Positions 3,391-36,210 of a stretch of 64,000 bases of DNA are shown in pieces. The translations under genes and the position numbers were made by a program. The stretch is from Lactifluus volemus (lineage: Eukaryota; Basidiomycota; Agaricomycetes; Russulales; Russulaceae). Where the stretch lies: contig WTXI01000093.1 of the NCBI GenBank assembly GCA_022376515.1, forward strand, positions 62,001 through 126,000, written 5' to 3'. Under the pieces are notes generated by a model. That model worked only from the letters and a program-made list of their open reading frames with translations. It did no database searches and was not told the origin of the DNA. The first letter of the stretch is position 1, and each line of letters begins with the position of its first letter.

Positions 3391-3679
3391 ATGCCATCCC
3401 AACCTCACCCAAGGACTAATGTCGCACGTATGCCCCTCTCCAATAAGTCTACACACATGCACATGGGTTAACTGCCTTATAGGAAGGGCCCTGTCTTTCT
3501 TCCACTTCTTTCGAAAAGCCAGATCCCACCAAAAGCCAAGCGAGATAACTCAGAAAACTCGGTCAGAGCCGCAAAATGGCAAAGCTAGCGGTTCCGTCGT
3601 CGCGGAAATTCCGACAAATACCGCCGAACGGAATCTTACGTGGAAGGAATGGCGTCAGATGTGGGAGGGCCGACGATGA
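3391..3679 (+). CDS. S1: small two-exon array gene, unknown function
   Basis: Model: exon 1 3391-3427, intron 3428-3482 (55 nt, GTATGC donor, GTTAAC branch point, TATAG acceptor), exon 2 3483-3679; 77 aa. The N-terminus is MPSQPHPRT, followed by an aromatic stretch (LSFFHFFRK, residues 16-24), a polar Ser/Thr/Gln middle and a Trp-rich C-terminus (AERNLTWKEWRQMW). There is no signal peptide or membrane helix, and I recognise no family. The start was chosen because this ATG and the codons after it are the same in all nine copies and place the splice in frame. An unspliced 86-codon frame (3419-3679) is also open, but it is broken in other copies. Against its paralogues this copy has substitutions around residues 44-50 (NGKASG in place of IGQTEG). 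Confidence 0.8.
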
Positions 3680-5144
3680 CCGAGATACAGTGAAAGGTGG
3701 AGGTTGCCCCCAAAAGGGGGACCAGAAGTCACCATTCCCCTAGCACCTCACCTATTCCCTCACACTGTCGCTCGGCCTTTATCTCAATGTACCTAGTTCT
3801 GATGTTGCGTTTTGACCCTTCTATACGTGTCTAATTGTTATAACTATCGCCGTTGATTAGCAGTGTGACCGTCTTATGCACGGTGCTGAAAAAACTGATA
3901 CATGCGTCCCAAAGCCATGTTTCAATCGAGTCGCTTTAGGTAATTGAACTCTCGGGTTGCAAGCAGCCATCTGTCGACTAGGCAGCAGGGTAGAATTTAG
4001 CGGTCAGTAGTAGTACTGCGCCTACCCTATGGAAAGGAGGTGTCAAGAGGGTCAACAAAATTCCGGGCTTGGTGATTGGGTAATAACGTCACGTGCTATT
4101 TAGTCGTCGGTCGGAGTGGTATGGAGAATTTCTTCCACTATTTTTGCTTCTAGTTGCAAGGGTTGTGTTTCATGAAAGGCTGTGTTCGCAGCGCCGCCAG
4201 GGGGTTGTAAGCGAGGTTCTAGAAGTCAGTCGCTGGCATGTACACCAAAGGTTGGGGGACAGTTTGTTCGCCATTGATTGTTGACGGATGATAACGCCGA
4301 TGTTAGAAACTCCCTGTTGTGTCGTGATTTTCCTATCGTCTATGATAGTTAGCTGGCACTTTGCCGTGATGGTGTTGAAAACAGTACCAACCGTATTGAG
4401 GGTTCGCTGGTGGCACATTACAAGGGTCCCCCAGTCTGGACTTTCGGCGTGCCTGGCCGATTTTGTGTGGTAGGAGAGGGGGCAGTGGAAGAGCACATGT
4501 TCTACTGCAACCTTCGGCTGCACTGACACGAGACGTAGCATGCAAGTCCTCATGCCTCAGAGGGCCAGCAAGGGGGGGCTTTGATGTGGTTCGATGTTGA
4601 TATGATGATGGTGATTATAAAGAGAAGAATAAGATGCCATTGACTTTTCGACTGCATGCTACTGCATCTTCAATCACAAGTTCGTACCGACACGGTGTGA
4701 CAGTTATAGTAGGAGGAAGGGGACGGACGTTGCAGCCGCTTAGCAGCTTAAAAATAGGAAGAGGAGACAGCGAGATGTACATCCCACCCAATCCAAAGTA
4801 GCAGACCAGGAGTAACTCATCGCGGCACAGCGAGCGACGTATTCGACGGTGAAGAGCGGAATGAGGCTGGTCTCGAGGCTGAATCAAAGGGCCCCCACGG
4901 CAAGGAGTGGAACACGGGCATGGTCACCAGTATGGTGACGAGCAGGGAGAAAGTGATGAGCACGGTGCCAAGAACGTGCACAAGCACCGCCGTGGGGGAC
5001 GAGTCGAGCAGGTTGTAGGGGAGATGACACATGATGTGCGAATCAGGAAGGTGCTCTTCATCGTGGGAATTTCGAGATCGGGAGTCCGTCGTGAGCGACC
5101 CTCCCGCCGCAACACACTGGCTCTGGGCGCAACCTTTACTCCCA

Positions 5145-5485
5145 ATGCCCGACGACAGTCCTCTGCCAGGTTTCATTCCGAAAAACTACAAAGTGACAAA
5201 CGAATCTATGTCTTTTCAACAAACTTTTCATCTGCCGAAGCGATCAGTCATTTCACAGTTTGCAGAGTGCTTCTTGGCTAGGCTTGTTTTACCGAGTTGG
5301 TCATTCCCAAGTTTTGTCATGTGGAGAGGCAAACACATTTACGGATTACCTCAACCGACACGACTAGTACGACCGTGACAAATGCCGATCTTTTCCAGGC
5401 CTACCACGACTGCAAGAAAGCGTGGGTTGCTCCAATCGCTCCCTTGTATCCGTCGCATGTTAACTGCTTCTTGAGATAGAAACCC
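5145..5485 (+). pseudogene. COX23: COX23-like relic in U1
   Basis: The start segment is preserved (MPDDSPLP), with an indel soon after. The CHCH part at about 5330-5425 keeps the second CX9C helix (DLFQAYHDCKKAW). It carries an internal TAG, and the first helix is shortened by a deletion near 5330. The boundary after KKAW looks like an intron (GTTGCTCC ... GCATGTTAACTGC ... GATAG), as in the other copies. Not functional. Confidence 0.6.
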
Positions 5486-5489
5486 CACC

Positions 5490-6300
5490 GTTCATGCAGC
5501 AAGTTCCATTAACAATCTCAACCGGAGACAGCACGCGGACGATCGCAGTTGCCACGCCAGATCAAATGACATGTGAGGACGGGATGTGCAGTTTCTCCAC
5601 CGTTGGACCAACAAGTCGGCCTGCGTTCGCTGCGATTTCAGCAAGCTCATACTCATTTGTGGTGCGTCGCCCCACGTGGGCGTTCACATCGAAAACGATC
5701 GGAACATTATGCCGCACTTACCAAAAATAATTACCAAGATAAAGGAACGAATGGCGGGTGTGTCACCGACAGACGAGCGCGGTCGCAATCTCGCATCCAA
5801 AAACATGTGAGGTTTGGACACCCGAACATTTCAAATCCTTCGTGAGGAGTGGCGAAGCTTGTAAGATTCCTTCGAGTTCCTGATGGCCCACTACTGCCTA
5901 GCTAACGCAAAGGTCGCTCGACTCAGGTTCTCGCACGACACTCGCCCCGTCCCGTACGCTCGGGAATGCTACATTGAGAACCACAAGCTGATGTCTGCGG
6001 TGGACAAGTTGCACAAAGCTGTACGCGAGCACGGCACCTCCCATCGTGTCGGCACGCAGTACGGGTCTCGAAGTTCTCGACGAGCTCGACGCGTTCAAGG
6101 CGGGCACCCTAGGTGCTGCAGGTGGATAATCCAGTACCTCTAGAGGCCCGGGATTCTTATGGGACACAGTTGCCAGAGGTGTAGAGACGGTCGTTGGTGG
6201 GGCTCAGGTTTCCGAGGCTGTCGGGAATGGTTTGAAGTCGGCTGCGGGGCCACGCTACAGCAGCTTGTGACAACATCCGCGCCTGCCGCTGATCGAAAAT
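5490..6300 (+). pseudogene. Module A relic, copy 2
   Basis: Same unknown gene as at 1700-2470. The intron is preserved (GTAAGATTCC ... GCTAACGCAAAG, about 5859-5908), and the exon 2 start VAR.RFSHDTRPVPYARE..YIENHK is in frame. The frame shifts at the GGCACGCAGTAC junction (about 6050), where copies 2-4 all have one base more than copy 1. A one-base loss at 5768 breaks exon 1. Non-functional as it stands. Confidence 0.5.
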
Positions 6301-7465
6301 CCTGAGTTGATTTTGCAAAGATGGAGCGTAGATTGAGGTCGCCATGATGCGAGCTATTTTTTGCCCTGGTTGGGAGTGACTGTGGCTTACCATTTCGAGG
6401 AACCACCTTCCTAAATGCATTTTAATCTGATACCATGACCTTGACCGCGCGATTTTGTTTTTGGAATCCGCATTTATATAGCGCGTGATGTTGACAAAAA
6501 CAAAGACGCGCTCGGCAACACAAGCTACAGGACAAAGGCATGCTCGGCCATGTAAACTACGGAAACCTGGGTATGCGTTATATAGTGCCTGTCTCTAAAC
6601 GTAAAGAAGTGTGGGTAGGGTGTGAAGATTGGTGTGAGGTGTGATAGTGGGGCGTGCGCTCCATTGACTACGCGATCGTTTGGTACGTCTCAGTCAAAGA
6701 TAAGCTACTAACCTCAGTTGGACGCTCGAACAGCCGACGAGGGCCAGAACCTTCCTGTCGGGCTCCCGAGTACGGGGGTGATGGTTTATATTTGTCAGTC
6801 GTCCGACATGTTGAATCCTAATATCATTAGTTATGTCATAGGTCGGATGAATAATGACTCGACGCGGAAAGCGGGGGATAACGATCTGTGTAGGCAGGGT
6901 ATGGTATGATACATTATGGTATAGTATGGGGAGAAGACGGACACGTTGGCCGTTGTTAGCCTTTTCAGTGCACCGGCAAGAGCCGACGGTGTACTTTACG
7001 GGGAATGAACCTGAACATTAACACTGCTTGGGTTTACGCTATAAAATTCCCGGAATCGATTTCAAGGCTGGCGCCGGCATGTTCTCTGTTGTGGTATTCA
7101 TCGAGTTGATTCCGAGGAAACTGCTCAAAAGGAATCATTATTATAAATTTATTGATAACTGTATTACTGTAACCTAATTGGCCCTACCTGGAAACAGGGA
7201 GACGTGCTAAGGAACGCGAGAGTGCAGGCCGAGGCTAAAAGCCCCCCGAGAGCATAAATTTGCGAGTGCCACGAGAGGTGACAATCAATAACTGTATTAC
7301 GGTAACTTGATTGACACCGGCAAGTGGCTGTCATTTATTTGTAGATATTTGTTAATAGAATAGATGCCCGAAATTACCAAATTGAGGAGGTGCCCCTCGA
7401 TCCGGATCGGGCAATGGATCAAAGACAAAGAATCCTCCTAATCGTTATCGGGGGCTGCCAAGCTC

Positions 7466-7483
7466 TATTTATATATGAAGTCC
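7466..7483 (+). promoter_or_regulatory. TATA box and core promoter of S2
   Basis: TTTATATATGAAGTCCCC lies about 110 bp upstream of the S2 ATG. The same element is found before S5 (19052) and S7 (24434); S4 has GGATATAAGCC and S6 TCTATAAGAG at the equivalent place. A pyrimidine-rich segment (CATCTCATCTCA...CCAAGCCCT) follows in all copies and may hold the transcription start. Confidence 0.6.
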
Positions 7484-7581
7484 CCAGCAGGGTCCCTACT
7501 AATTTCCCATTCATCTCATCTCAGAGACTCAGACCAACCAAGCCCTTATAACAACTACCTATCCCCAATAATTCATAGCCC

Positions 7582-7867
7582 ATGCCATCTCAACTTCACC
7601 CAAGGACTAATGTCGCACGTATGCTCGTCTTCAGCAGGTCTACTACACATATGCACATGGGCTAACTGCCTTATAGGAAGTGCCTTGTCCTTCTTCCACT
7701 TCTTTCGCAAGACAGACAGATCCCACAAAATACAAGGTCCGATAACTCAGTCAGGGTCGCAAATTGGCCAGACTGAGGGCTCTGTCACCGCAGAAATCCC
7801 GTCAGATACAGCTGAACGGAATCTAACGTGGAAGGAATGGCGTCAGATGTGGGATGGGCGACTCTGA
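7582..7867 (+). CDS. S2: small two-exon array gene, unknown function
   Basis: Exon 1 7582-7618, intron 7619-7676 (58 nt, GTATGC donor, GCTAAC branch point, TATAG acceptor), exon 2 7677-7867; 75 aa. It belongs to the subgroup with MPSQLHPRT and KTDRSHK, together with S8, S5 and S7. Relative to S5 and S7 it lacks three codons in the middle, an in-frame change. The intron is three nt longer than in S1, and it contains no in-frame stop in the unspliced frame, so read-through also appears open here. The C-terminus is TWKEWRQMWDGRL. Confidence 0.8.
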
Positions 7868-8671
7868 CTTCCCGGGATCCAATCAAAGGAGGGGGTTGCC
7901 TCCAATAGACGGGCCAGAAGTTACCATTCCCCGAGTACCTTACCTTTCCTCCAGAACGTCGCTGTCTTTATCTCAATGTACTTTGATGCTGCGTTTCGAC
8001 CCTTCTTTACCGAATTGTGTGTTTAATTGCTACATCTATCACCGTTGGTTAGCAGAGTCAGCGTCTCATTACAGTGCAGTGGAAGTACACGACCGATACA
8101 CGCATCCCGAAGCCATGTTTCAATCGAATCAATTTAGGATTTTAAGTTCTCACGTTTCAAGAAACCATCGGTCTGTGACTAGGCAGCAGGGTAGAATTTA
8201 GCGATCAGAGGTATGTTGTCACTGACGGGGTGAAGAAGTCACGTGCCATTTCGGCTGTTGGAGGGCGTCCAGCGTTTGAGACAAGCCAGGCTAGAGTCTA
8301 GTCCCCGGCAATATATGGGTATGCGGTCTGCTGGGTCGGTGTGGAATGGGAAATCTTGCTTTCTCCGTGACTTTGCTCCTCTGCCTTGAAACAGTTGTTT
8401 GTGCTAACTCGTCGTGGCATAGTAGCAAGCAACATACTCGGCATTGAAGAGCGACACGAGGCTACTCGAGGCTGAATCAAAAGGCCCCCGCTGCAAGGAG
8501 TGGAACACGGGGGTGGTCTCCAGTATGATGAAGAGAGGAGAGAAAGTGATGGGGCAAGAACATGCACAAGCACCGCCCGTGGGCGACGAGTGCTCTTTAT
8601 CGTGGGAATTTCAAGATCGGGAGTGCGATCGTCCCTCCGACTCCGGGCGCAACATCCCTGCCTTTCTCCCA

Positions 8672-9060
8672 ATGCCCGACGACAGTCCTCTGTCAGTTTT
8701 CACACCGAAAAACTACAAAGAGATTCCATGCCTGCAAGATATATCATTTCATAAACGAATCTATGTCTTTTCAACACAACGTTTCATCTGTCGAGGATCA
8801 GTCACTTCACAGTTTGCAGAGTGCGTCTTGGCTTGTTTTGCCGAGTTGGTCGTTCTCAAGTTTTTTCCAGCTCAAGCTCATTGTGGAGAGGCATATAACG
8901 CATTCATGGATTACCTCACCCTGACTAGTACGACTGTGACGAATGCCAATCTTTCCATGCCATTGCAAGAGAGTGTATTCGTCTAACCGCTCCCTTGTAT
9001 CCGTCGCATGCTAACTGCTTCTTGAGATAGAGATATGCAAGGCAGAACTGCCTCGCCGGT
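8672..9060 (+). pseudogene. COX23: COX23-like relic in U2
   Basis: The start MPDDSPL and the following KNYKEI are conserved. The first CX9C helix region reads C-GEAYNAFMD-Y in the CHCH frame (about 8880-8913), so the second cysteine of the pair is replaced. The second helix is damaged by a deletion near 8950-8965, where the QAYRDC codons are lost. A chance open frame of 180 codons (8444-8986) runs across this block and is not a gene. Confidence 0.55.
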
Positions 9061-9109
9061 AGATATCACCCAACGCTACTATTGCCTTCTGCCTATCCTC
9101 AGAAACCCC

Positions 9110-9900
9110 ACCGTTCATGCAGCAAGTTGCATTAACAATCTTAACCGGGGACAGCACGCGGACGATCGCAATTGCCATGCCAGATCAAATGACATGTGAG
9201 GACGGAATGTGCAGGTCCTCCACCGTTGGACCAACAAGTCGCCTTTGCGTTCGTTGTGATTTCAGCAAGCTCATACTCATTCTTGGTGCGTCGCTCCACG
9301 TGGGCGTTCACATCGAAAACGATCGGAACATTAAGCCGCAATTTCCAAAGATAGTTACCAAGATAAAGGAACGAATGGCGGGTGTGTCACCGGACAGACA
9401 AGCGCGGTCGCAATCTCGCATCCAAAGTTTAGACACCCGAACATTTCAAATCGTTCGATAGGAGTGGTGAGGCTTGTAAGATTCGTTCAGGCTCCTGATG
9501 GCCCACTGCCTAGCTAACGCAAAGGTCGCTCGAACCAGGTTCTCGCACGACACTCGTCCCGTACGCTCGGGAACGCTACTTTCACAAGATGATGTCTGCG
9601 GTGGACAAGTTGCATGAGCTGTACACGAGCACGGCACCTCCCATCGTGTGGGCACGCAGTACTGGTCTCGAAGTTCTCAACGAGCTCGAGGGGTTCAATG
9701 CGGGCATCCTAGGTGCCACAGGTGGACAATCCAGTACCCATAGCAGCCCGGGATTCTTATGGGATACAGTTGCCAGTCGCTCGTTGGTGAGGCTCAGGTT
9801 GCGCAGCTGTGGGGAGTGGTTTGAAGTCGGCCGCGGGGCCCGTGTTACAGCAGCTTGCGACAGCAGCATCTGGACCTGGCACTGACCGAAAAATATGAGT
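9110..9900 (+). pseudogene. Module A relic, copy 3
   Basis: Same unknown gene. The intron is at about 9475-9523. The MMSAVDKLHEL segment starts at 9589, but about 12 bp are missing just before it and KAVREHG is altered. The frame shifts at about 9648, as in copies 2 and 4. The Gly/Ala tail is recognisable to about 9880. Confidence 0.45.
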
Positions 9901-10845
9901 TGATTATGCAGAGATGGTGCGTTACCATGATGCGAGCTATTGTTTCTCTGGGAGATGGTTGGGCATGAATGTGGCTTAAGGGCCGTCCTAGATGCATTTT
10001 TATCTGATGGCGTGACCTTGATCGATTGACCGCGCGATCGTGTGGTATTGATCAAGATTAATACTGAGTGGGCTGGAAGTAATGCACTACCTTTTTAGAT
10101 TTGATTCTAGCTTAGATTTGAGTCAGGAGATTCACTTACAAATATTTTATAACTTATACGGCATACGAAGAGTTCGCGAGCGAAGGCCCAGGCACGGTGT
10201 ACTTTACGAGCATACGCAAGGCGCGCGGAGAACCTTTTACGACGCATCATCGTTCATTGACCACCATGTCTATTTGTAGTGAACACATGTAAATACATTA
10301 CTAACAGCTGATTGCAATGTATTAGACCATATTTTGTCCCGCTCTGCTTACAGTCTTTGTTTATGTGTTTTCCGCACCTAAGATGATGAAAACGGTGGAT
10401 ACTCCGCTGTCCCACCGTGATTAGTAATGTAGATGTGTGATTTATACGCTGAGGCTAGTGCTGCGGCCCAATATACCGGACCAGCATCAATCCCAGCAGA
10501 AATCTGCATTTGGGTACAAACAAACTATGCCTCATCAATGATTGTCCTATTTTGGTTACATTTATTTGGAGATTTTTCGTAAAGCTTGCGCGATGAGAAA
10601 TTTCGTGTTGCTGGATCGGGCTTAGTGATTTGTGTTTCTTGTTGCGGTTCTTGTTGCCGTTCACTTACAAAACGCCACTTACCGAATAAGGAAGGAGACA
10701 CCAGTTGCCCCGTCCCTGTTGTAGCTGAGATGCGTGTTATAGTTAAGGATCCAGTTCCCAGCATTGCCTTATCATCTTTTCCCTCTCACCTCATACCATA
10801 CTAACCAAACCCTCACAACACCTTCCCTAACAATTCATAAAACCC

Positions 10846-11108
10846 ATGCCATCGCAACCTCACTCAAGGACTAATGTCGCGCGTATGCCCCTCCTTCAAT
10901 GGGTCTACACACATGCACATGGGTTAACTGCCTTATAGGAAGGGCCCTGTCTTTCTTCCATTTCTTTCGCAAAGCCAGATCCCACCAAAAGCTAAGCGAG
11001 ATAACTCAGAAAACTCAGTCGAAGCCGCAAATTGGCCAGACTGGGGATACCGCCGAACGGAATCTCACCTGGAGGGAATGGTGTCAGATGTGGGAGGACC
11101 GACGCTGA
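10846..11108 (+). CDS. S3: small two-exon array gene, shortest copy
   Basis: Exon 1 10846-10882, intron 10883-10938 (56 nt, GTATGC, GTTAAC, TATAG), exon 2 10939-11108; 68 aa. A nine-codon in-frame deletion removes the segment after QIGQTG (SVIAEIPS-like in the others), so the protein goes straight to DTAERNLTW. The reading frame stays intact. No TATA box is obvious upstream. The unspliced frame starting at ATGTCGCGC hits a stop within the intron, which supports the spliced model. The nearest relatives by sequence are S1 and S9. Confidence 0.75.
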
Positions 11109-12990: not shown

Positions 12991-13129
12991 TCTCTTGAGC
13001 CCAGATAGGGTATTGGTTCGGGAAGAAGGTGGAACATGTCAGCAACATGAGTTTGTATAAACCTGTGCTTCATAGTCAATAATAAGCAACGCGGAAGTGG
13101 GAAGAGGCTGAGTCTGAGCCCAAGTCCGA

Positions 13130-14481: not shown

Positions 14482-14761
14482 ATGCCATCCCAACCTCACC
14501 CAGGGACTAATGTCACACGTATGTCCTTCTTCAACAGGTATACACACATGCACATAAGTTAACTGCCTTGTAGAAAGGGCCCTGTCTTTCTTCCACTTCT
14601 TTCACAAACACAGATCTCACCAAAATCCAAGCGAGAAAACTCAGTCAGAGCCGCAAATTGGCGAAACTGGGGGTTCTGTCGTCGGGAAAATTCCGTCAGA
14701 TACGGCCGAACGGAATCTCACGTGGAAGGAATGGTGTCAGATGTGGGAGGGCCGACGGTGA
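14482..14761 (+). CDS. S4: small two-exon array gene, unknown function
   Basis: Exon 1 14482-14518, intron 14519-14573 (55 nt, GTATGT donor, GTTAAC branch point, TTGTAG acceptor), exon 2 14574-14761; 74 aa. The junction codon becomes Gln (Arg in most copies). Two short in-frame deletions shorten the middle (SEKTQSEPQIGETGG). The unspliced frame starting at ATGTCACAC stops inside the intron (ACA TAA), so only the spliced form can be translated. The C-terminus is TWKEWCQMWEGRR, as in the S6/S9 subgroup. Confidence 0.8.
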
Positions 14762-16159: not shown

Positions 16160-17000
16160 AACATACAGTACAGTACCCGCCGTTCTACGACCGTCCTCTA
16201 TATATTTTCAACAAACTTTTCATCTGCAGACATGAACATTCACTCCCAATTTGCAGAGTGAGTTTTACCGGAGTCGGTCTTTGTCCAACTCAAGCTCATG
16301 TCGACCAGTCCTATTGCCACATCCCGCATGCGAATTGTGCAATCGTCTGAGGCCGATGCAATACGCTGTCCGTCCAGCGAGAATGCGATGTCGCGTTATA
16401 TCAACCCTTCCGCAATTCCCTTCGATCACCGAGCCAGCTGGTTCGACTACCAACCCTGACGTTTCACCTCATGGGAAGGAGGTGTCAAGAGGGTCAACAA
16501 AATCCCGTGCGTCATGATTCCCCCCTCTTCCCTTGAATGAAAGGGCAGCAGCTTACTTTTGGTGGCTTGGTTTGGCACTGCGCCGACTAGTTGGACAACG
16601 CGCGTGCCGCGCTAGACTTACTGTATATCGTTCACACGCGACTGAGTGGGGACCGCGATCCGTGACGGTCAGTGGCCATCCGCACTTCCGCCCAGCACGT
16701 TTTCCCGTTGCTACCTCTAAGAGGGCGAATAAAAAAAATTAAGCGAAAAACGGACATTAGAGACACCCCGTCCGCCCCAGGTATCTAACGCATTCGTGGA
16801 TTGCTTTTGTCAATTGACACAACTAATATGACTGTGACAAATGTCTCGATCTTTTCAAGGACTACCATGACTGCAAGAAATCGTGGGTTCGTCTAATCGC
16901 TCCCTTGTATCCGTCGCATGCTAACCGCTTCTCGAGATAAAGAAACGCAAGGCCTACAGCCGCTCCGGTAGATATTAACCAACGCTACTGTTGCCTTCTG
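16160..17000 (+). pseudogene. COX23: COX23-like relic in U4, split by an insert
   Basis: The left part (16195-16302) and right part (16780-17000) match the COX23-like relic of the other units. About 470 bp are inserted between them at the point where the others read CTCATGT|GGAGAGGC. The right part keeps a segment after the CHCH helix, KKRKAYSRSG (about 16938-16968), that resembles the basic tail of COX23 proteins. Several stops are present. Confidence 0.5.
16303..16390 (-). pseudogene. Single WD40-blade fragment of an NLR
   Basis: The minus strand reads DGQRIASASDDCTIR followed by a decayed strand d (MRDVAIG where the intact NLR has VWDATTG). It matches the repeated blades of the NLR at 38,693-43,570 at nucleotide level over about 80 bp and in the same orientation. 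It lies inside the insert that splits the COX23-like relic of U4. Just downstream (about 16470-16505) is a short match to 4033-4075. Confidence 0.75.
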
Positions 17001-17019
17001 CCTATCTTCAGAAACCCCA

Positions 17020-17770
17020 CCGTTCATGCAGCAAGTTGCATTAACAGCCCAAATCGGGGTCAGTCGGGACCGCCTCTCCGCCTTTACCTCTGCCGTGTGC
17101 CAGGGGTACTACGAGCAGACACCCCCTCTACCGCAGCCTCAGGGTCATCTAGCTACCACGCTAGGTCAAGCCCTCCTCATGTTACACAGCTGGCCAGGTG
17201 TCATCCTTCGTGGAAACCTCGTTGATACCACCAATCCCTTCTTTCAGCACATTGTCGGAATAAGCCTGCCCACAGCGGATGTCCGGACCAGCCCGGTACC
17301 CCAAGGAGACCGCTGGCTCACATTGCAACATCCCACTCCCCGAACCCACCGGGCCGCACCCAACGATCCTCCATGCCAGCCAACGACATTTTCATGTCAT
17401 AATACCCTTGGAGACACCCAGGAAAGAATGGACTAGACCCCCTGTTTTCTTTACGACTGCCCTCCGGACGTTTTGACTGAGTTGTGACTGGCAACCCTCT
17501 AATACATATGATTGACTTCTTGCCTACCCCTCATGCCGCCTTCAATCATGTTCCTGCAGGAACCGTGTCTTTGTCATAGGTACACGTTGTGGAATATACA
17601 CGTAGACAAATACGTGACGATGCTCCGAACCAATCAACTACATTTCCGACTCCCCCCCCTCCGCCTCTTACAATCCCATTTTTCCAGAAACCATTTCTTT
17701 GAATAAGATACATGTATTGATATATAGATGCAGACTGAAAGAAACAAATAGCTGCCGGGGATTGAAAAAC
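17020..17770 (+). repeat. Module B, copy 1 (U4)
   Basis: Begins at the shared ATGCAGCAAGTT junction where modules A and B diverge. A plus-strand frame of 136 codons (17026-17436) is open and reads RDRLSAFTSAV and LGQALLMLHSWPG, but it is broken in the copies at 29420 and 37890, so its coding status is unclear. The segment from 17390 to 17770 is the 3' flank of the NLR and is shared with 38310-38690. Confidence 0.6.
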
Positions 17771-17784
17771 AAAGTATGCTCAAC

Positions 17785-18137
17785 CTATTTAGATAAATCG
17801 TGATCATGTACGGTAGCCCAATTTGATCCATACACAAACTTTGAGAAATCAAGCCGGGTCTCGTGTTCGCCTGCAATCCAGATGGTGCTAGGTCTATGAA
17901 GGCACGGCCTATGAAGCCCAGGAATCCATAAAATACGTTCTTTCTCTTCTCCGTATATCCAATCGTCCGAGTAACAATCAAACATGGTTTGGTCCGTAAA
18001 ATGATTTTGAATATCTTCCGTCGTGATCTCCATCACATCAATTCTGCCGTCTTCGGAGGCTGAGATTGTATCATGCCCGTCTAATGAGAATGCAACAGAT
18101 TTGACCAGATAAGGGTGTCGAGTAAACGGTGGAGTGG
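17785..18137 (-). pseudogene. NLR C-terminal relic (last WD blade and tail)
   Basis: The 117-codon frame corresponds to the end of the intact NLR: the degenerate last blade (VKSVAFS.DG), then TTEDIQNHFTDQT, WIYG.EKE.ILWIPG and the tail FVYGSNWATV.DH.LSK with stop. It is open and well conserved, but the rest of the protein is absent: homology ends at 18137 and unrelated sequence follows. It lies in U4 at the same position and orientation relative to module B as the intact NLR does in U9. Confidence 0.9.
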
Positions 18138-19171: not shown

Positions 19172-19458
19172 ATGCCATCCCAACTTCACCCAAGGACTAA
19201 TGTTGCACGTATGCCCTTCTTCGACTACACGCATGCACATGGGCTAACTGCCTTATAGGAAGGGCCTTGAACTTCTTCCACCTCTTTCGCAAGACAGACG
19301 GATCCCAGAAAAGACCAGGTTCGATAACTAAGAAAACTCAGTCAGGGTCGCAAATTGGCCAGACTGAGGGCACTATCATCGCCAAAATCCCGTCAGATAC
19401 AGCTGAACGGAATCTAACGTGGAAGGAGTGGCGTCAGATGTGGGATGAGCGACTCTGA
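19172..19458 (+). CDS. S5: small two-exon array gene, unknown function
   Basis: Exon 1 19172-19208, intron 19209-19258 (50 nt, shortest of the nine; GTATGC, GCTAAC, TATAG), exon 2 19259-19458; 78 aa. Its promoter is the best preserved, with TTTATATATGAAGTCCCC at 19052 preceded by GAATTGGAAATTC and by a block of nine CCAAT boxes. The unspliced frame stops in the intron (GGC TAA). The middle contains KKTQSGSQIGQTEGT and the C-terminus is TWKEWRQMWDERL. It shares subgroup features with S7 and S8. Confidence 0.8.
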
Positions 19459-21198: not shown

Positions 21199-21487
21199 AT
21201 GCCATCCCAACCTCACCCGGGGACTAATGTCACACGTATGCCCTTCTTCAACAGGTCTACACACATGCACATTGGTTAACTGCCTTATAGGACGGGTCCT
21301 GTCTTTCTTCGACTTCTTTCACAAAGACGGCTCCCACCAAAAGCCAAAGGGGATAACTCAGAAAACTCAGTCAGAGCTGCAAATTGGCCAAACTGAGGGT
21401 TCTGTCATCGCGAAAATGTCGTCAGATATGGCCGAACGGAATCTCACGTGGAAGGAATGGTGTCAGATGTGGGAGGGCCGATGCTGA
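21199..21487 (+). CDS. S6: small two-exon array gene, unknown function
   Basis: Exon 1 21199-21235, intron 21236-21290 (55 nt, GTATGC, GTTAAC, TATAG), exon 2 21291-21487; 77 aa. The aromatic stretch is LSFFDFF and the middle is ITQKTQSELQIGQTEGS. The C-terminus is TWKEWCQMWEGRC. A TATA-like TCTATAAGAG lies at 21099. It differs from S9 at a dozen or so residues without any frame disruption. The unspliced frame is open in this copy. Confidence 0.8.
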
Positions 21488-24559: not shown

Positions 24560-24853
24560 ATGCCATCCCAACTTCACCCAAGGACTAAAGTCACACGTAT
24601 GCCCTTCTTCAACTATACACATGCACATGGGCTAACTACCTGACTTATAGGAAGGGCCTTGTCCTTCTTCCACTTCTTTCGCAAGACAGACAGATCCCGC
24701 AAAAGACCAGGTCCGATAACTCAGAAACCTCAGTCAGAGTCGCAAATTGGCCAGACTGAGGGCTCTGTCATCGCAAAAATTCTGTCAGATACAGCTGAAC
24801 GGAATCTAACATGGAAGGAATGGCGGCAGATGTGGAATGACGGACTACTCTGA
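24560..24853 (+). CDS. S7: small two-exon array gene, unknown function
   Basis: Exon 1 24560-24596, intron 24597-24650 (54 nt, GTATGC, GCTAAC, TATAG), exon 2 24651-24853; 79 aa, the longest copy. The ATG of the alternative unspliced frame is AAG here, so only the MPSQ start works; the change is a harmless Asn-to-Lys (TKV) in the spliced frame. The C-terminus is altered to QMWNDGLL by an in-frame insertion and nearby changes. The promoter has GAATTGGAAATTC and CTATATATGAAG. A repeat element is inserted 17 bp after the stop codon. Confidence 0.8.
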
Positions 24854-27157: not shown

Positions 27158-27441
27158 ATGCCATCCCAACTTCACCCAAGGACTAATGTCGCACGTATGC
27201 CCCTTCAGCAGGTCTACTACACACATGCACATGGGCTAACTGACTTATAGGAAGGGCCTTGTCTTTCTTCCACTTCTTTCGCAAGACAGACAGACCCCAC
27301 AAAATACAAGGTCCGATAACTCAGTCAGGGTCGCAAATTGGCCAAACTGAGGGCTCTGTCACCGCAAAGGTTCCGTCAGATAGAGCTGAACGGAATCTAA
27401 CGTGGAAGGAATGGCGTCAGATGTGGGATGAGCGACTCTGA
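27158..27441 (+). CDS. S8: small two-exon array gene, unknown function
   Basis: Exon 1 27158-27194, intron 27195-27250 (56 nt, GTATGC, GCTAAC, TATAG), exon 2 27251-27441; 75 aa. It is the closest relative of S2 (same KIQGPITQSGSQIG middle) with AKVPSDRAERN near the C-terminus. Indels in the intron destroy the unspliced frame (stop at GGC TAA), while the exons are intact. A weak TATA (GTATATGTAG) lies at 27042. Confidence 0.8.
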
Positions 27442-28973
27442 CTTCCCGAGATTCAATCAAAGGAGGGGGTTGCCTCCAATAGAAGGGCCAGAAGTTACCA
27501 TTCCCCATGTACCATTACCTTTCCTCCACACCGTCGCGCTGTCTTTATCTCAATCTACTTTGATGCTGCGTTTCGACCGTTCTAGATAGAATTGCGTGTC
27601 TAATTGCTATAACTATCGCCGTTGGTCAGCAGAGTCAACGTCTCATTACAGTGCAGCAGAAGTACACGACCGATACATGCATCCCGAAGCCATGTTTCAA
27701 TCGAATCAATTTATGATTTTAAGTTCCCGCATTGCGAGCAAGTATCCGTCTGTGACTAGGCAGCAGGGTAGAATTTAGCGGTCAGTGGTATGGTCGCGTA
27801 TCGCTATCACTGCGCTACGGACGGGTAAAGAACTCACGTGCCATTTCGGCTGTCATTAAAGGTGGTTGTGGTTAGTTGTGCGTTTGAGAGAAGGGCTGTA
27901 ACGATGGTGCACCTCCCGTCCCTGTTAGTAGCCGATAAAAACACCAGCTCAGGTTGTATCACCCTAAGCCAGGCTAGAGTCTAGTCCCCAGCAATATATG
28001 GGTATGCGGCCTGCTGGATCGGCGTGGAATAGCAATCTTGCTTTCTCCATGACTTTTGCCCCTCTTCCTTGCAACGGTTGTCTGTGCATTACGGCAGTCT
28101 TCCACAGAGGACACAGGGCTACCAAGGGGGGGGGGGGGGTGGTTGTAAATGGAGAGGAGCAAGGTTCCAGTTCTCTTTACAAGTAGTTTGAGGGAGTAGG
28201 TATCTGGAAGGAACACGATGGATGATGTTGGCCGGACAGCTTGTAATTTGCCATGATTGTCGAGAACAGTACCAACCATATTGAGGTTTCGATAGTGGCA
28301 CCATTACAAGACCCCCCTAGTCAGGACTGTCGGCGTGGGTCTGCTTTTGTGCGGCAGGAGGAAGAGCGCATGTTCTACTGTAACCGTCGGCTGCACTGAC
28401 ACAAGATGTAGCATGCCAGCCCTCATGCCTCAGAGGCTGGGAAGGGTGACTTTGATATGCCATGTGCACTTGGTTGTGGAGACTGTATAGATAAAAATAA
28501 GATGTCTTCGACTGCATGCTACGGTATCTTTAATCATAAGTTCGGTATGACAGCTACAGTAGGAGAAAGGGGACGGACGTTGCAGTCGCGTAGCAGCCTA
28601 AAAAAGGAAGAGAAAAGGGAGAGACGTACATCCCACCCAACCAAAAGATGCAAATCAGGAATAACTCGTCGTGGCACAGCGAGCGACATACTCGACTGGA
28701 CTCAAGGCTGAATCAAAGGGTCCTCCCCCCGGAAAGGAGTGGAACACGGGCATGGTCTCCAGGCTGAGGAAAGAGAGAGAAAGGTTGCAAGAACATGCAC
28801 AAGCACCGCCGTGGGCGACGAGTTGGGCCGCTTGAGCATGTTGTAGAGGTGCGGAGAGGAGATGACCGATATCGATGACTCCCTAGTGGGAAGGTTGTCT
28901 TCATCGTGGGAATTTCGAGATCGGAAGTGCGATCCTCGCGGACTCCGGGCGCAACATACCCGCCTTTCTCCCA

Positions 28974-29400
28974 ATGCCCGACGACAATCCTCTGTCAGTT
29001 TTCACACCGAAAAACTACAAAGAGATTCCATGTCCATATTTCATTTCATAAACGAATCTATGTCTTTTCAATAAATTTCTCATCTACAGAAGCGGGCAGT
29101 CACTTCACAGTTTGCAGAGCGCGTCATTGATTTATGTTACCGACTTGGGACGTTCTCAAGTTTTGTCCAACTCAAGCTCAATCTGGAGAGGAATATAACG
29201 CATCCATTGATTGCTTCAACCGACGTAACTGGTACGACCGTGACAAATGTCTTGATCTTTTCCAGGCCTATCGCGATTGCAAAAAAGTGTAATCGCTCCC
29301 TTGTATCAGTCACATGCTAACTGCTTCTCGAGACAGAGAAACGCAAGGCCTACAGCCGCGCCTGTAGATATTAACCAACGCTATTGTTGCCTTCTGCCTA
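28974..29400 (+). pseudogene. COX23: COX23-like relic in U8 (best CHCH region)
   Basis: The best view of the gene. At 29206-29292 the frame reads IDCFNRR, then YDRDKCLDLFQAYRDCKK, containing a perfect CX9C (C-LDLFQAYRD-C) and the YRDCKKAW-type signature of COX23/CHCHD7. A stop follows directly (KKV-stop), and one extra codon (Trp) sits between the helices. The C-terminal basic segment reappears after a probable intron (EKRKAYSR-like, about 29333-29360). The first CX9C cysteine is lost. Confidence 0.65.
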
Positions 29401-29419
29401 TCCTCAGAAGCCCCACCTA

Positions 29420-29830
29420 CCATGCAGCAAGTTCCGTTAACAGCCCAAATCGGAGTCAGTCGGGACCGCCTCCCCGCCTTTACCTCTGCCCAAGTGCCAC
29501 GTGGTACTACAAGCAGACGACCCCTCTACCGCAGCCTGGGGGTTATCTAGCTACCACGCTGGGTCAAACCTTCCTTAAGCTACACTGCTGACCAGGTGTC
29601 ATCCCTGTTGGAGGCCTTCGAAGGCCTGTTGGCACCATCAGTCCCTTCTTTCAGCACGGAACCTACATTGTCGGCATCACTTAGACCACAGCAAGGCCGA
29701 AGCCCGGGCCTGCCCACAGCGGATGTCCGGATGGGCCCGGTACCCGAGGGAGACATCCCTACTCCCCGGACCCACGGGCCGCACCGAACGATCTTCCATG
29801 ACAGCCAGCGACATTTGGTCATTGGTGTAT
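29420..29830 (+). repeat. Module B, copy 2 (U8)
   Basis: Starts at ATGCAGCAAGTTCCGTTAACAG and matches 17026-17390 and 37901-38290 with many indels. The frame that is open in U4 is broken here. Homology to the NLR 3' flank ends at about 29830. Confidence 0.6.
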
Positions 29831-29869
29831 ACAGCTCGGGTTGGCATCGACTCGGAGGTTTGCCTAGAA

Positions 29870-30110
29870 AGTAAATGCTATGTCCTAGTACCACCCTCAC
29901 ATCGTCTCTACGAAAGCTCCATGATTGCTACGTCTTGTAAATTTTTAGCTAGTGTTCCGATGGTAATTACGTTGTCCATGCCTTCTTACTGCGACGCTTC
30001 CAGATCGATGTCTTGTGCTGTGGAGCCTGGTTCTCGCCTCAGGTATTCGCGCATGTGCAACGATCAATACTTAGAGCACAAACAACTCCCAGAGGCACAC
30101 ACGCATTATG
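29870..30110 (-). pseudogene. Relic of unknown gene R, copy 1
   Basis: The minus strand reads REYLRREPGSTAQDIDLEAS, a stop, then MDNVITIGTLAKNL and a decayed continuation with VVLGHSIYF. Two more copies lie at 46080-46300 and 48300-48520. Comparing the three shows a once-continuous protein; each copy has stops. I do not recognise the family. Confidence 0.45.
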
Positions 30111-31026
30111 ATTCCCCCCATTTTACGAAATGGAGCTCGTTCCTGTCGGCCAGGGCAGCTGCACGTATTCAAGTCAGAGGCGAACGATGTCTACTGCGTG
30201 ATACCCACCGCCATAGTGTGTTGAATTCCGATTGTTGTCCGTTGATGCCCTCTGATGGCAGATGCAATTAAGACCCTTTAAATCTAGTCGGCAAATACGA
30301 GGCGGGATCCCTCCCAAGTCATGAGACCCGTGTGTCCTTACCACCGACAGGAGCGCCGGTTACCCCGAGCTAGCAGCTTGTCATTGAACAGGTGAGTGGA
30401 GATACAGGTATCAAACCAGAGAAAGGAAGAAGCAGCTACAGCGACAAAATCTCCGCAATGGCGAACTGGGACTGGGCCCCCTTATTTGTAGTCTATGCTC
30501 TTTGCCACCGAGGAGTCAGCCAGCCTCAAATACGTCAATTGGAATTGAGAAGGTGATGCAGCGATGGTAACACAGAAGTCAATTCGACGGTGTCATTAGT
30601 GTGGCTGTACATTGAACACGCAAAGGAGGCCCGAATAGACGTAGGAACAGCGCGCCCATGATATTGAGACATAGATAGTTACGTGACGGATAAATCTTCC
30701 ACTGGCAAGACGATTGTGCGCTAGTCTAATCGGCCCGACCTTGAGATGGGGGGACGTGCGAAGGGAGATGAGATGAAGGCCCGATCGGGAGCTGAAATCA
30801 GCCCCCAGAAAAACATGAAATTACAGAGCACCGCGAGACAGGCGTAGTCACCCACCGAGTGAGGTGAAAACAAAGCAATCTGTGGTCTAACGAGTGAGGC
30901 ACAGATAGGAGGAAGCGAGGCAGTCACCCACCGAAGCAGGTGAGCCAATTAGGCTTATGTAAACTCAAGTTTAAAGTCGATCAAGTGTCGCCTGAGCTCG
31001 CGCGGAAGACCTTTCCAGCCTTGAGA

Positions 31027-31927
31027 TCAGTCTACATGCGATGAAACCCGCAGTTGCTCACCAACATTGTTTGTGCCGAACGGAACCAAAAAGTAGGAGG
31101 CACCCACCATCGCTTCGACATTCGCTGATGCTGGATACTTGACATGCTGGGCCACACGCCGAATGAACCTGTCATGGGCCAAGGCCATTGCGACGGCGAA
31201 GAAGGAGGGGGGCAAAAAGCACGTGACGCCGAAGTCGAGTGCTACGATCTTACCCTCTGGGCGTTTTATGAAGTTGGTACGATTTATGTCGCAGGGGCAA
31301 AGACGTAGGCCATCGCGAACTTCATCTTTGAAGCTGACCCGTTCGGACACACCCTTGTATGCGAGGATCTGTCATTCTTCCGAGTCAGCAGCAACGCATA
31401 TGAAAATGACAATACAAAGTTACTCCATTGATGTGCTTTTCTAATGCTTGGACCGTGTCATACGTAACGGATGATTCCCCATCGACGAAGAAGCGGTGCG
31501 GGATGGGACCTCCACCGACAGGTCCGGGTGCAGTGGTCGGACCTATGACGCGGATAAGACACTCCACGGCAGCAGCAACCTGCAGGACATCGGAGTCATC
31601 GCATAGTGAACCATCAATGTACTCCATGACGATATAGCCATTGTGACCGTGTTTGAAAGCCTGATAGACGGTAGGGATTCGCACCAGGGCATCGGGGTTG
31701 GGGTTAAGGACTTTCCCAACCCAGTCCTGTGTGAGGGCCTCACTCATCGTCACCGTCAGGCCGTACTTGACCCAGGCAGAGGTAACCCCACGAGACTGGT
31801 CGATTATTGGAATACCGCGGACATTATAATCATACCCGGCGTCTCGACAGAGTTGCACGATATCCTCTGCAAGAGGCAGGTTGGCGGGTCTATTTTCTGC
31901 GAGAATGACGGACCTGACCTGTGACAT
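31027..31927 (-). CDS. APH/choline-kinase-like phosphotransferase (intact copy)
   Basis: Two exons: 31927-31424 and 31353-31027, with intron donor GTAACT and acceptor ACAAG; 276 aa. Features of the fungal aminoglycoside-phosphotransferase-like (APH, protein-kinase fold) family: WVKYG with the candidate ATP-binding Lys, followed by SEAL with the helix C Glu; IPTVYQAF; the hinge GYIVMEYIDG; the catalytic loop CDINRTNF, with Cys in place of the usual His before the catalytic Asp; and LDFG for metal binding. The substrate is unknown, and fungal members are rarely true antibiotic kinases. It is divergently arranged with gene H at 32196. The start is the ATG before SQVRSVILAEN, which is conserved in the right copy. 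I am fairly sure of the fold, less sure of activity. Confidence 0.8.
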
Positions 31928-32195
31928 GTTGAGGCTCAATTCATGGCGCGTCTAGAAGGTTAGCACCGGCCCGGGTTGACGCGTTGACGCGTTGACTCAT
32001 CGCGTTATCCTCCAACACCGTTCACCCCCGCAGTCCACGTTGGCCCAAGGTTACTAGTACCAGTTACTACTATGTGGCCAGAAGCCCGAGCTCTACGCAC
32101 GTCTATAACACGGCGTCAGATGTCAACCATCATCTCAACTCGAACAGCCAGCCCCACATCCTCTTAACAGCTTCGCCACTCAAACTGGTTATAAA

Positions 32196-33150
32196 ATGTC
32201 GTTTCTTCTACCCCGTGCTCACCATCTCTCTCTTGCTTTTCCTATTCCGTCCTCTTTCCAGATCCGCCACTCAAACATCTTATATAAAGTTAACCTACCG
32301 TATGTTGTCGTCATCTCGTTTCCTCTACCCGTGCTCACCATCTCTCTCTATTCCTATTACGCGTGGATGCATGCAAAATTCACGCCTACAAACGTTCCCG
32401 ACGCCCTCTTGCAGAAGGTCATCATAAATTTGCAGATCTATGCCCACATTCTCAAAGGGGGTGCCATGGTTGGCACGAGGCAGTCGCCCTGACCCCGACT
32501 TTGTACCCGACGAAGTATTTAGCGACATTGGCAGCATCAACAAGCCCCCGCTTGTCGACGGCCAGGGCAAGCCGGTCGTCGTCAGCAGCAGTGGCAACGG
32601 CGACACCAGCAACGACAGCGAGCCAGCCAAATTTAGTGACGCTGGCAGCCAGGACATTCCGCCAAGCATTCGCTCTAGCGGCGGTGGTGTCATCTAACAG
32701 CCCACTGAGGACGCTTCAATCCCGGGCGTCTTCGCCATCCGCACCTTCGCGCTCGCCGCCGGCACCACGTTTGGACAGCTCCTTCATGCTCTTACGTCCC
32801 GCGGCATGGAACCATTTCATTTCTGCAAGATCGGAGCGGCGTATTTGGGTTGCCTTGACTCTATGTGCGTCGTTCGGCAATCTTCAGCTACTTATCCCCT
32901 GATTTTATTCTCTTCGTCTTTACAGTAGTCAGGCCGCGGCCGCGTGAATCTCGGACGGCCTCATATTGACTGGCCTTTGCAGTGAGACGCCGGTGCAAGA
33001 CATCTTCGTTCTATTGGAATGGCGCTACACCCGACCTCGCGTCCCATGCAACCGCGACGACACGACCACAGAAGAAGGCGTGTGCCGCACTCCCAACTAC
33101 ATCGATCGCGCCGAACTGCTGATTATAAGCTTAATCAGCATTTTGTAATC
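32196..33150 (+). pseudogene. Gene H, left copy: unknown protein, probably broken
   Basis: Coding-like segments occur in order: 32196-32492 (YYAWMHAKFTPTNVPDALLQ), 32440-32696 (a polar Ser/Asp-rich segment around EVFSDIGSINKPP and AKFSDAGSQDIPPS), then AAGTTFGQLLHAL (about 32757-32790), and a segment around 32990-33150. The second ends in a TAA at 32694-32696 where the right copy has CAA, a probable nonsense change. Splicing could join some parts, but I cannot fix a full model. No family is recognised. It is divergent from the APH-like gene with about 270-510 bp between starts. Confidence 0.4.
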
Positions 33151-34924
33151 TCAATCAACGCCTACTTTTAATTTCTGGCACGTACTGTACTACATAGATC
33201 CTGGGCTTCTATTATATTTTAGAGTTTAGTGGTGACTCTGATGAGTTTGTAAACGCCGATCTCGGGACTTGGAGAAACGTTCTGTTTTTCGAATTTCTCG
33301 GCCAAGCTAGGCTTCCAGCTTCAACTTGTATCATTCAGTGCTATGTTTTCGTTTCCTGCAATAACCTCAGCGTCGGCACCTGAATTTTTCAGCTGTGAGA
33401 CCATGGACTATCGTCACGGTGTCAAAGACATTTTTTTGTTTCCCCCAATAACCTTGGTCTTGATTGTTGTTGCACCTAGCCTCAAAGTTCCTCGACAGAA
33501 ATGCCATGTACGGGTTGCTCATTTGATGTGCACGTTTTCTGCATTGTCGAAACTAACCCGATGTCTTTGTGACTACTGCCTTAGTGTCGTACAAAATTCC
33601 AGATGACTTCGGCACACACAAATTAGTATAAAACGAGGTGTCGTCACGGTAGTGACAAGACGCCACTCCAATTGAAGGGCAAAGCTGTAGGAGGCGATAG
33701 TGCGTATAAGCTATTTCAGCAGATCTCACGTGTCATAAATGTAGAGTGTCTAGGTGGGCATGAATTTGGGAAGAAGTAGCGATGTACAGGATCTGTAATG
33801 TAATCACGTAACTACCAATAAACGAGTCAGCGAAATGTAGCATTTGCATAGGGCATATACGACAACAAGTACGCATCCAATTAACCATTTCTAGCGCGTC
33901 ACGAACTGAAGGACAATAACCTGAGATTTGTGCTATAAAGAAGTCAGATCAGATCATGCGTGCGTATGAATACTCAGAAACTTTGGTGGCGCACCATATT
34001 GTTCCGGAAATTGCCGGCTTAGGTGCATAAAGTACACATGATACGTAGTGTCGTCATTTCATGAGCGCGCAGCATGAACAACCTCTAAAGGGTATTTACC
34101 AAAGACCTGACACTTTCGCGTTGGGATTTTCACTCCGTCCCCAGTCGTGGTTCCTTCCAACATAGCACGGACACTGTTTGGACTGGCCTCTCGTTGCATG
34201 CCCCCGATGCTTTATTTCACACCGGTACAACATCGCCATCACTTGTACCCTCATCGTGGGCCGCGATAGCGTACTGCATGCACATCATGCGTCCCCGTCG
34301 CCAACTCCTGTCTTTCCAGTGTAGCGCTCATTCTCGCATCATGGGACATCGCTCAATGGTCCTGTACCACACTCTGGAAGGAGGAGGACACGCAGTGCAT
34401 TAAGTGTACCGAGCGCGTCACCATCTTCACCATTACAAGCATCAGCATCACCGCGGCAGCGGCGTTGAGGATGACGTTTTCGCCGCTGCTCCTGCTCCTC
34501 CCATAGCTAGTCATGTTCCATTGAGTACCCCTGCTGCGCCGGCTAGACCGTTTGAGATGGACTCTGTGAATGATGACAGTCTGAGGTCTGGTCTGTGCGG
34601 TATCAGAAGGACTACTGTAATTCGAATGCGGACTCAGAGATGGGGAGAGGCACAAGATGATGAAAATGGAGGTGCTGCTGATGACGCGTGGGTAGATACA
34701 GATACAAAACCGGACGGGGGCGATGGTGGCTGGCAGCCACAGCCACCATCATGAAGTGCGATTAAGCGCGGAGCGCTGTGCTTCAAGTTTGCGGGTTTCC
34801 GAAGACCTTCTTCCTAGGAGACTGGACCGTTTCCTAGTAGCATTACATGGCTGTTATTGTTTTTGGCTCCAAAGTCGAGAATCCCTAGAGTGTCAACTTG
34901 AAGTTCTTTGCAGAGAAACCTTTA

Positions 34925-35207
34925 TGGCACGCAAAAGCAAATTCTGCCAGTATTGCTGGACTTCATAATAGGGAATGTATCATGCATATGTCTGCTTTGT
35001 TCAGTCTTTTTCCCTTTAGATAGTTTAGTGATATCCTGTTGGCAGCAAAAGTTGGCGATGTTGCAGTGGAGATCGGTTATAGCACACAAAAGTAAATTTT
35101 GCCAGCTGGACATCACGATAGAAAATGTGTTATGCATGTCTGCTTTGTTCAGTCCTTTTCCCTGTAGATAGCAGCAATATCCTGTTGGCTGCAAAAGTTG
35201 GCAAGGT
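34925..35207. repeat. Tandem duplication of about 140-150 bp
   Basis: Two copies (34925-35062 and 35080-35207) share GTCTGCTTTGTTCAGTC, TTTTCCCT(T/G)TAGATAG and ATATCCTGTTGGC.GCAAAAG. Copy 2 is shortened by small deletions. No coding function is seen. Confidence 0.7.
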
Positions 35208-35509
35208 TGGACACCCGTGTGGCAAGATCCTCAACCGCTGGGCACTTTGGCCTACACTTCAGCCAACATAGTCCGAGTGGTGAGTAAACACCTGTAAATA
35301 CATTACTTATAATCGTAATGGGGTCCTTCATAGCAGATGAAAGCGCCGCTTTCCGGGGTGCTTTCAAAAGTGATTTGGACCTTGATTTGGACTCGAGAGC
35401 TTGCTCGAGAGGTGTCCTTCTGATCAGTCACGCAAGGTCACATGCCAAATTTCAGACTCTGTTTGGCGTAGGTCACAAATAACACAATGAGGACATTCTC
35501 TATATGGGA

Positions 35510-35597
35510 AATATGGGGAACAATGTGGGGAACAATATGGGCAACAATGTGGGGAACAATGTGGGGAACAATATGGGCAACAATATGGGCAACATTC
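35510..35597. repeat. 12 bp minisatellite
   Basis: About seven tandem copies of GGGAACAATGTG with variants GGCAACAATATG. It lies about 330 bp upstream of S9. Confidence 0.8.
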
Positions 35598-35654
35598 ATC
35601 TAATAACCCTGCCAGTGAGGCCCAGGGCCCGAGGAAGTTTCCAATCTTGGCGAC

Positions 35655-35678
35655 AGTCCTACTAGTACTAGTAGGACT
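35655..35678. other. Perfect 24 bp palindrome
   Basis: AGTCCTACTAGT is followed immediately by its exact reverse complement. It could form a cruciform or be a dimeric binding site. It is located between the 12 bp minisatellite and the S9 promoter. Confidence 0.75.
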
Positions 35679-35921
35679 TGTCCGACTTGAGCGCCACGGC
35701 GGTGCCTGTAGGGTCTCGGGCCTACCAAATCAGGATGTTTCGTTCGGCTTCAATTCAGTGATAAAGTCTCAGTGATAAAGTCTCAAGATTCCCTCAGTTT
35801 CGATCAGTGATAATTTTCCCAACATCACCCTATTATTTTTTTCCCGCTCACCGCCAACCAAGCCCTCAAGTCACAACACCTACCCCGCCCCCCAACAATT
35901 CATAGACAATTCATAGAGCCC

Positions 35922-36210
35922 ATGCCATCTCAACCTCATCCGAAGACTAATGTCGCACGTATGTCCTTCTTCAACATGTCTACACATATGCACATTGGTT
36001 AACTGTCTTATAGGAAGGGTCCTGTCTTTCTTCCACTTCTTTCATAAAGACAGATCCCACCAAGAACCAAGGGAGATAACTCAGAAAACTCAGTCAGAGC
36101 CGCAAATTGGCCAAACTGGGGGTTCTGTCATTGCAGGAATTCCGTCAGATACGGCCGAACGGAATCTCACGTGGAAGGAATGGTGTCAGATGTGGGAGGG
36201 CCGACTCTGA
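35922..36210 (+). CDS. S9: small two-exon array gene nearest the NLR
   Basis: Exon 1 35922-35958, intron 35959-36013 (55 nt, GTATGT, GTTAAC, TATAG), exon 2 36014-36210; 77 aa. The N-terminus is MPSQPHPKT, the aromatic stretch LSFFHFFHK, the middle EPQIGQTGGSV, and the C-terminus AERNLTWKEWCQMWEGRL. It is the S copy closest to the intact NLR: the two genes face each other 3' to 3' with 2.5 kb between stops. The unspliced frame is also open in this copy. No clear TATA box; the conserved TTTCCCGCTCA element lies at about 35851. Confidence 0.8.

Follow-up and report, generated by a model that had tools for sequence, protein, structure and literature searches.

Are the nine short, two-exon reading frames that recur along one stretch of the Lactifluus volemus genome real genes, and what might their products do? 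The stretch, hereafter the window, is 64,000 nucleotides (nt) long and comprises bases 62001–126000 of C622, a 129,666-base contig (WTXI01000093.1) in an assembly of 62.4 Mb and 628 contigs. We call the family to which the frames belong S. The sequence evidence, which is clear for a gene of this size, indicates that S is a genuine spliced protein-coding family with selection acting on both ends of its protein.

A preliminary description of the window had reported nine intact copies between positions 3391 and 36210, and the start signature together with splicing recovered all nine at exactly those positions; in 100 shuffles the signature matched 0.29 times on average and twice at most. Every gene lies on the forward strand, with an exon 1 of 37 nt and an intron of 50–58 nt that has a GTATGC or GTATGT donor and a TAG acceptor. 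Removing the introns gives nine open frames of 68–79 amino acids (aa) with no internal stop. From left to right these are gene 1 (3391–3679, 77 aa; exon 1 3391–3427, intron 3428–3482, exon 2 3483–3679), gene 2 (7582–7867, 75 aa; exon 1 7582–7618, intron 7619–7676, exon 2 7677–7867), gene 3 (10846–11108, 68 aa; exon 1 10846–10882, intron 10883–10938, exon 2 10939–11108), which belongs to a short clade lacking nine codons, gene 4 (14482–14761, 74 aa; exon 1 14482–14518, intron 14519–14573, exon 2 14574–14761), gene 5 (19172–19458, 78 aa; exon 1 19172–19208, intron 19209–19258, exon 2 19259–19458), gene 6 (21199–21487, 77 aa; exon 1 21199–21235, intron 21236–21290, exon 2 21291–21487), gene 7 (24560–24853, 79 aa; exon 1 24560–24596, intron 24597–24650, exon 2 24651–24853), gene 8 (27158–27441, 75 aa; exon 1 27158–27194, intron 27195–27250, exon 2 27251–27441), and gene 9 (35922–36210, 77 aa; exon 1 35922–35958, intron 35959–36013, exon 2 36014–36210). 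Alternative splicing of gene 4 to a 103-aa frame is possible; we adopted the homologous 74-aa model.

The array extends past the window, with three more copies upstream at C622:53471, 57863, and 61560. Altogether, C622 carries twelve array copies (53.5–98.2 kb), and a second contig, C79, carries sixteen (240.7–335.4 kb). To the left of the array the two contigs are 97–99 per cent identical, C79 being about 2 kb longer there; on the other side identity is 98 per cent at 42.8–43.7 kb of the window and 97 per cent at 57–59 kb, and the neighbouring NACHT proteins are 99 per cent identical. Because the flanks are this similar (97–99 per cent), C622 and C79 appear to represent allelic haplotypes. 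The S tree has several clades, each with members from both haplotypes; therefore the array predates the haplotype split, and copies have been gained or lost since. The family had earlier been called rapidly expanding: copy number does differ between the haplotypes (12 versus 16), which may reflect gain or loss. All twelve copies on C622 and fifteen of the sixteen on C79 are intact (27/28 overall), and in the sole broken one (C79:299860) 4 nt have been inserted into exon 1 and exon 2 contains a stop.

Searching the genome with S DNA gave thirty-four matches: twelve on C622, sixteen on C79, one each on C152, C46, and C301, and three short ones on C2. A protein search gave forty-three, adding divergent genes on C112 and C115 (two each), C2 (five), C79 (at 471 kb), and C26; one match, on C618 (E 3.6), was dropped as chance, leaving forty-two. 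The divergent relatives occupy three further loci, and a single outlier copy is found at C46/C152. A splice-aware scan, which demanded an ATG, a GTATG donor in phase 1, and W-K/R-E-W and retained the longest reading, yielded thirty-eight full gene models, alleles included; afterwards, the acceptors of C115:3407 and C2:286926 were re-set to the homologous one. The four matches without a full model are the broken C79:299860, the C301 fragment, C2:288535 (no exon 1), and C2:292314 (no C-terminal motif). One modelled gene, C2:273678, was excluded from the codon work and from the 37-protein alignment for its shifted exon 1, its lost stop, and an E at the position of Q71. Its exon 1 is read in a shifted frame (MANTTSKASKVTR), and the loss of the usual stop extends the reading to 167 aa. 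Divergent subfamilies, at 47–57 per cent identity to S9, have kept a start, an intron, the C-terminal motif, and a stop, and DNA similarity to the window at their loci lies mostly within the gene, with one further 81-bp match elsewhere on L048. The copy at C46/C152 is probably one that escaped from the array, judging by sequence, because it nests within one array clade and shares with the array only some 770 bp, a block that starts about 90 bp upstream of the ATG and extends about 677 bp downstream of it.

For the tests of selection, we used the 29 intact array-type genes (27 from the array, plus C46 and C152) and counted broken copies only where stated. In neutral simulations on the 29-gene tree, with substitutions only and the majority sequence as the start, a mean of 20.6 of the 29 tips acquired a stop, with a minimum of 5 in 1000 runs. 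The observed number is 0/29, or 1/30 with the broken array copy and 2/31 with the C301 fragment as well. Terminal branches alone would be expected to carry 10.1 nonsense changes, and the 29 genes carry none (one copy with a stop if the broken copy is added). Thus, selection continued after duplication, unless gene conversion explains the deficit. Chance open frames are rejected by the shuffles, the simulation, and this terminal-branch deficit.

Rates of change agree with selection on the protein. Omega under the GY codon model was 0.70 for the 29 genes and 0.72 for 37, and with omega fixed at 1 the log likelihood for the 29 was 3.3 units lower under the best-fitting of seven kappa values. By region, the ratio of nonsynonymous to synonymous change (dN/dS, as a ratio of means over 406 non-independent pairs) was 0.36 at the N-terminal end, 0.79 in the middle, and 0.27 at the C-terminal end; the pooled value for nine haplotype pairs, matched from the tree, was 0.51. 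The twelve aligned C622 units have identities of 0.70–0.94 across the gene, except in one gap-rich 25-base bin (0.42), and of at most 0.65 upstream and 0.75 downstream, so that identity peaks within the gene. Distinct gap intervals, counted across 28 copies with C79:291658 excluded for its short flank, numbered 65 in the 300 bases of 3′ flank (15 of them a multiple of three), 7 in exon 2, and 0 in exon 1. Four of the seven in exon 2 were multiples of three as aligned by nucleotide, and the net frame is retained. The suggestion that the family is under selection is thus borne out, by about 21 of 29 copies expected with stops under neutrality against 1/30 broken and by the regional dN/dS values. 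As for the copies being functional, the intact frames and the selection support this in an evolutionary sense only.

Seven residues, E61, T65, W66, E68, W69, Q71, and W73, are identical in all 37 aligned S proteins, and synonymous changes are present at L64, T65, and E68. Of the 37 models, 34 lack D or E in their first 24 residues, K and R number 2–7, and the best helical moment is 0.23–0.70. In the array copies, judged from sequence, the first 14 residues are polar and basic and are followed by a hydrophobic run of about eight. AlphaFold placed helices at residues 10–28 and 66–76, in a poor model (mean pLDDT 56, pTM 0.24). By eye, we found no convincing secretion signal, and no transmembrane segment was apparent by the same means. 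The preliminary description had recognised no family. Indeed, Pfam gave no match to one S protein at E 0.01 and, for eight subfamily members at E 10, returned only four chance-like families (best E 0.052), and no solved structure matching S was found in the PDB.

We lean, with slightly better than even confidence, towards S being a lineage-restricted family of intracellular, membrane-attached peptides with a partner-binding tryptophan helix, maintained in a birth-and-death array; the biochemical part of this is what we infer. The family evolves as copies duplicate in tandem, are lost, and now and then escape to other sites. Its product would be a small intracellular peptide whose basic amphipathic N-terminal helix (about residues 10–28) attaches it to a membrane, most likely, judged by charge and helical moment only, as a mitochondrial import signal. 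A disordered, freely changing linker would join this helix to a short tryptophan-rich one at the C terminus (E-R-N-L-T-W-K-E-W-x-Q-x-W) that may bind one conserved partner, and the array may serve dosage and linker variation.

Several points weigh against this account. Overall omega is only moderately below 1, one of the nine haplotype pairs has a dN (0.127) greater than its dS (0.083), and broken copies could be purged by gene conversion. The sharing of donor, phase, and W-K/R-E-W among the 38 models is partly by construction because the scan required them. The left-out C2:273678 carries E in place of the otherwise invariant Q71, three of the 37 models have an acidic residue within the first 24, and the AlphaFold model scores low.

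One copy had already been annotated. The hypothetical protein BGW80DRAFT_243682 of L. volemus (P0001), of 77 aa, is letter for letter our model at C79:335091 and so matches the predicted splicing exactly. It stands in the annotation as a lone hypothetical protein; the literature search described below turned up no account of the family, the array, or the selection. A database of 5.8 billion proteins, searched by shared five-residue words (unannotated small genes of other species escape such a search), yielded five further relatives sourced from the Joint Genome Institute (JGI; P0002–P0006), on contigs of 1.6–5.9 kb that are probably metagenomic, and no others. P0002–P0004 and P0006 have the S C-terminal motif and middle region, P0005 the middle. 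All five are closest to the C2 subfamily. P0006 is 94 per cent identical to the C2:273678 copy and has its long tail in common with it. A virus-borne gene was considered and rejected: 22 stretches in viral contigs fit the one pattern used, none of them a relative. Among plasmid sequences there was no match. On present sequence data S appears restricted to Lactifluus and close relatives. A literature search, with most subscription journals outside its coverage, found no publication on the family. The earlier term ‘undescribed’ has to be qualified for the copy annotated as BGW80DRAFT_243682.

S is a new family among tandem orphan genes. Orphan small secreted proteins of ectomycorrhizal fungi are short, taxon-restricted, and multi-copy, and S resembles them in all three respects; unlike them, it has no convincing signal peptide by eye. 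The wtf spore killers of fission yeast are likewise multi-copy, lineage-restricted, and variable in copy number, and their proteins have several transmembrane segments and dual transcripts. S is like wtf in the first three traits and unlike it in that no transmembrane segment is apparent by eye.

The wtf comparison bears on the possibility, to which we give a small chance, that S is a selfish family, e.g. a spore killer of the poison-antidote kind or a small mobile block that multiplies itself. The narrow distribution in the database searched, the 12 and 16 copies on the two haplotypes, and the arrival of a block of about 770 bp, intron included, at C46/C152 would all fit. Against it, the edges of the C46 block have neither a direct repeat of at least 10 bases nor an inverted repeat (shorter target-site duplications would be undetectable); the sole inverted pair there is 11 nt long and is not at both edges. 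The divergent loci have mostly the coding part in common, and the transmembrane segments of wtf proteins have no counterpart seen by eye in S. An evident transposon, in particular, is not supported, there being no repeats of at least 10 bases at the C46 block edges.

The gene adjoining the last S gene raises another possibility. It encodes a NOD-like receptor (NLR) on the reverse strand (38696–43708; WD40 frame 38696–41080, NACHT frame 41110–42672, and a presumed N-terminal frame without a Pfam match at 42905–43708), starting about 2.5 kb past the last S gene of the window, and a NACHT gene has the matching position on C79. S might therefore be an adaptor, effector, or guarded decoy of this NACHT–WD40 receptor, with the array supplying variants for fungal self/non-self recognition. 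We find this doubtful, and a link with the NLR, which the preliminary description had noted beside the copies, is not supported. Inside the array, at 16976–18129 on the reverse strand, lies a copy (85 per cent) of 37860–39037, a segment extending into the 3′ end of the NLR; therefore, array duplications once reached the NLR. Moreover, the two S genes on each of C112 and C115 are 15–17 kb from NACHT genes. However, when the sequence surrounding the S genes of C46/C152 (20 kb each), C2 (34 kb), and C26 (10 kb) was read, no frame resembling the window's NACHT turned up at E 1e-5. The NACHT class is also very abundant, with 821 loose candidates in the 62.4 Mb genome (the best 150 were scored, and all 150 match), so that finding one within 20 kb at two of five S loci would probably be unremarkable. 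An S profile at E 0.1, run on frames of at least 30 aa in the window and L036–L055, matched S exons only and no motif in the NLR N terminus. The closest sister NLR (C412:166224–166790, 89 per cent to the NACHT query) has no S match on its contig. Because no like NACHT was detected around three of the five S loci and the neighbours differ from locus to locus, we treat the NLR as a neighbour that is probably incidental and outside the S family.

In the fungal NLR/effector pairs described in PMC9815663, which use amyloid signalling motifs, partner genes are encoded near the NLRs, and a motif at the N terminus of the receptor recurs at the C terminus of its partner. S shares no detectable motif with the NLR, and its C-terminal end is modelled as a helix; nor does its neighbourhood with the NLR appear stable, in view of the stretches read at C2, C46/C152, and C26 and of C412.

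It is similarly doubtful that S is a dying family, selected in the past and now a young neutral repeat. Broken or incomplete copies do exist (C79:299860, two on C2, and the C301 fragment), exon 1 of C2:273678 is altered and its stop is gone, and dN/dS in the middle region is 0.79. This has to be set against the 10.1 nonsense changes expected on terminal branches where one of 30 copies is broken, the pooled 0.51 for the nine haplotype pairs, and the concentration of gaps in the 3′ flank of the 28 copies (65 there, 7 in exon 2, and none in exon 1).

More speculatively, and as a long shot, S could represent a hitherto unknown class of fungal peptides for recognition or drive, in which a haplotype-specific set of 12–16 variants shares one fixed tryptophan helix and a common intracellular partner, so that the two haplotypes of a dikaryon would have different doses of peptide and different linker variants. 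That what is conserved is an RNA or DNA element, with the open frame incidental to it, is very improbable. In its favour, the introns are about as conserved as the exons (0.80–0.90), and in five close copies nearly 400 bp of 3′ flank are well conserved. Against it, conservation sits at the protein level, exon 1 can be 37, 46, or 52 nt long and always fits one phase (which the scan required), and Rfam had no match in the window at gathering thresholds. As a separate observation, the identity of S introns among the 12 C622 copies (e.g. window 35959–36013) would seem to exceed what splice signals alone need.

With both haplotypes in one assembly, selection, copy birth and death, and haplotype differences can be seen together in a taxon-restricted micro-gene family. 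Such genes are easily overlooked; one annotated protein of L. volemus compares with 38 gene models here. If the tryptophan motif has a definable partner, S, read as a family of membrane-attached, partner-binding peptides, would offer a handle on how new small proteins gain functions in ectomycorrhizal fungi. The recognition or drive reading, if true, would raise the interest of the family from moderate to high.

Between the S genes lie copies of a companion module (example at 4239–6530, no strand assigned), with little protein-coding signal. With introns left unmodelled, the 13 C622 copies examined have stops in all six frames, their longest open stretch is 177 aa, and gap intervals are a multiple of three in 32/140 and 13/49 cases. 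Because of these stops and mostly frame-breaking gaps, the module looks non-coding rather than like a decaying gene, and the rest of each unit, earlier described as decayed, shows little sign of having once been a protein gene. Of 103 candidates, the best 40 were scored; nearly all of these lie in one or other of the two arrays or, inverted, 13–20 kb before them, with parts of the module also present on C412 and C284 and short stretches of it on C1, C31, C135, and C203. At C412:173079–174028, pieces of the module lie on the same relative side of the sister NLR, and S was matched nowhere on that contig; it may be the module, and not S, that goes with the NLR.

Twenty neighbouring frames, chosen from a larger list, were scanned against Pfam, and no common neighbour of the S loci was found among them. 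Matches were to a tnp2 transposase-like frame (C112), an aldo/keto reductase and TruB (C115), a seryl-tRNA synthetase (C152), two DUF6535 frames (C26), and an endonuclease-type frame (C2). The tnp2-like frame (L044:1785–4505) is less than 1 kb from an S gene on C112, and immediately 3′ of that gene C115 has a different sequence. This suggests a haplotype-specific insertion.

Within the NLR, at 38981–40804, are fourteen WD40-repeat copies of 129 bp that are 78 per cent alike in DNA; amplified WD40 repeats occur in other fungal NLRs. Elsewhere in the window, two inverted copies (30322–33113 and 48601–50884) are 72–88 per cent identical over four pieces and carry a frame of some 188 aa in which MSQV(R/K)SVILA occurs close to the start, one of them with a sub-threshold ABC1-kinase match (E 0.015). 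Finally, a frame at 52971–53918 without a Pfam match has 48-bp tandem repeats and a hydrophobic start (MKATLIFIVFSSLAVAVQG) and apparently encodes a secreted repeat protein.

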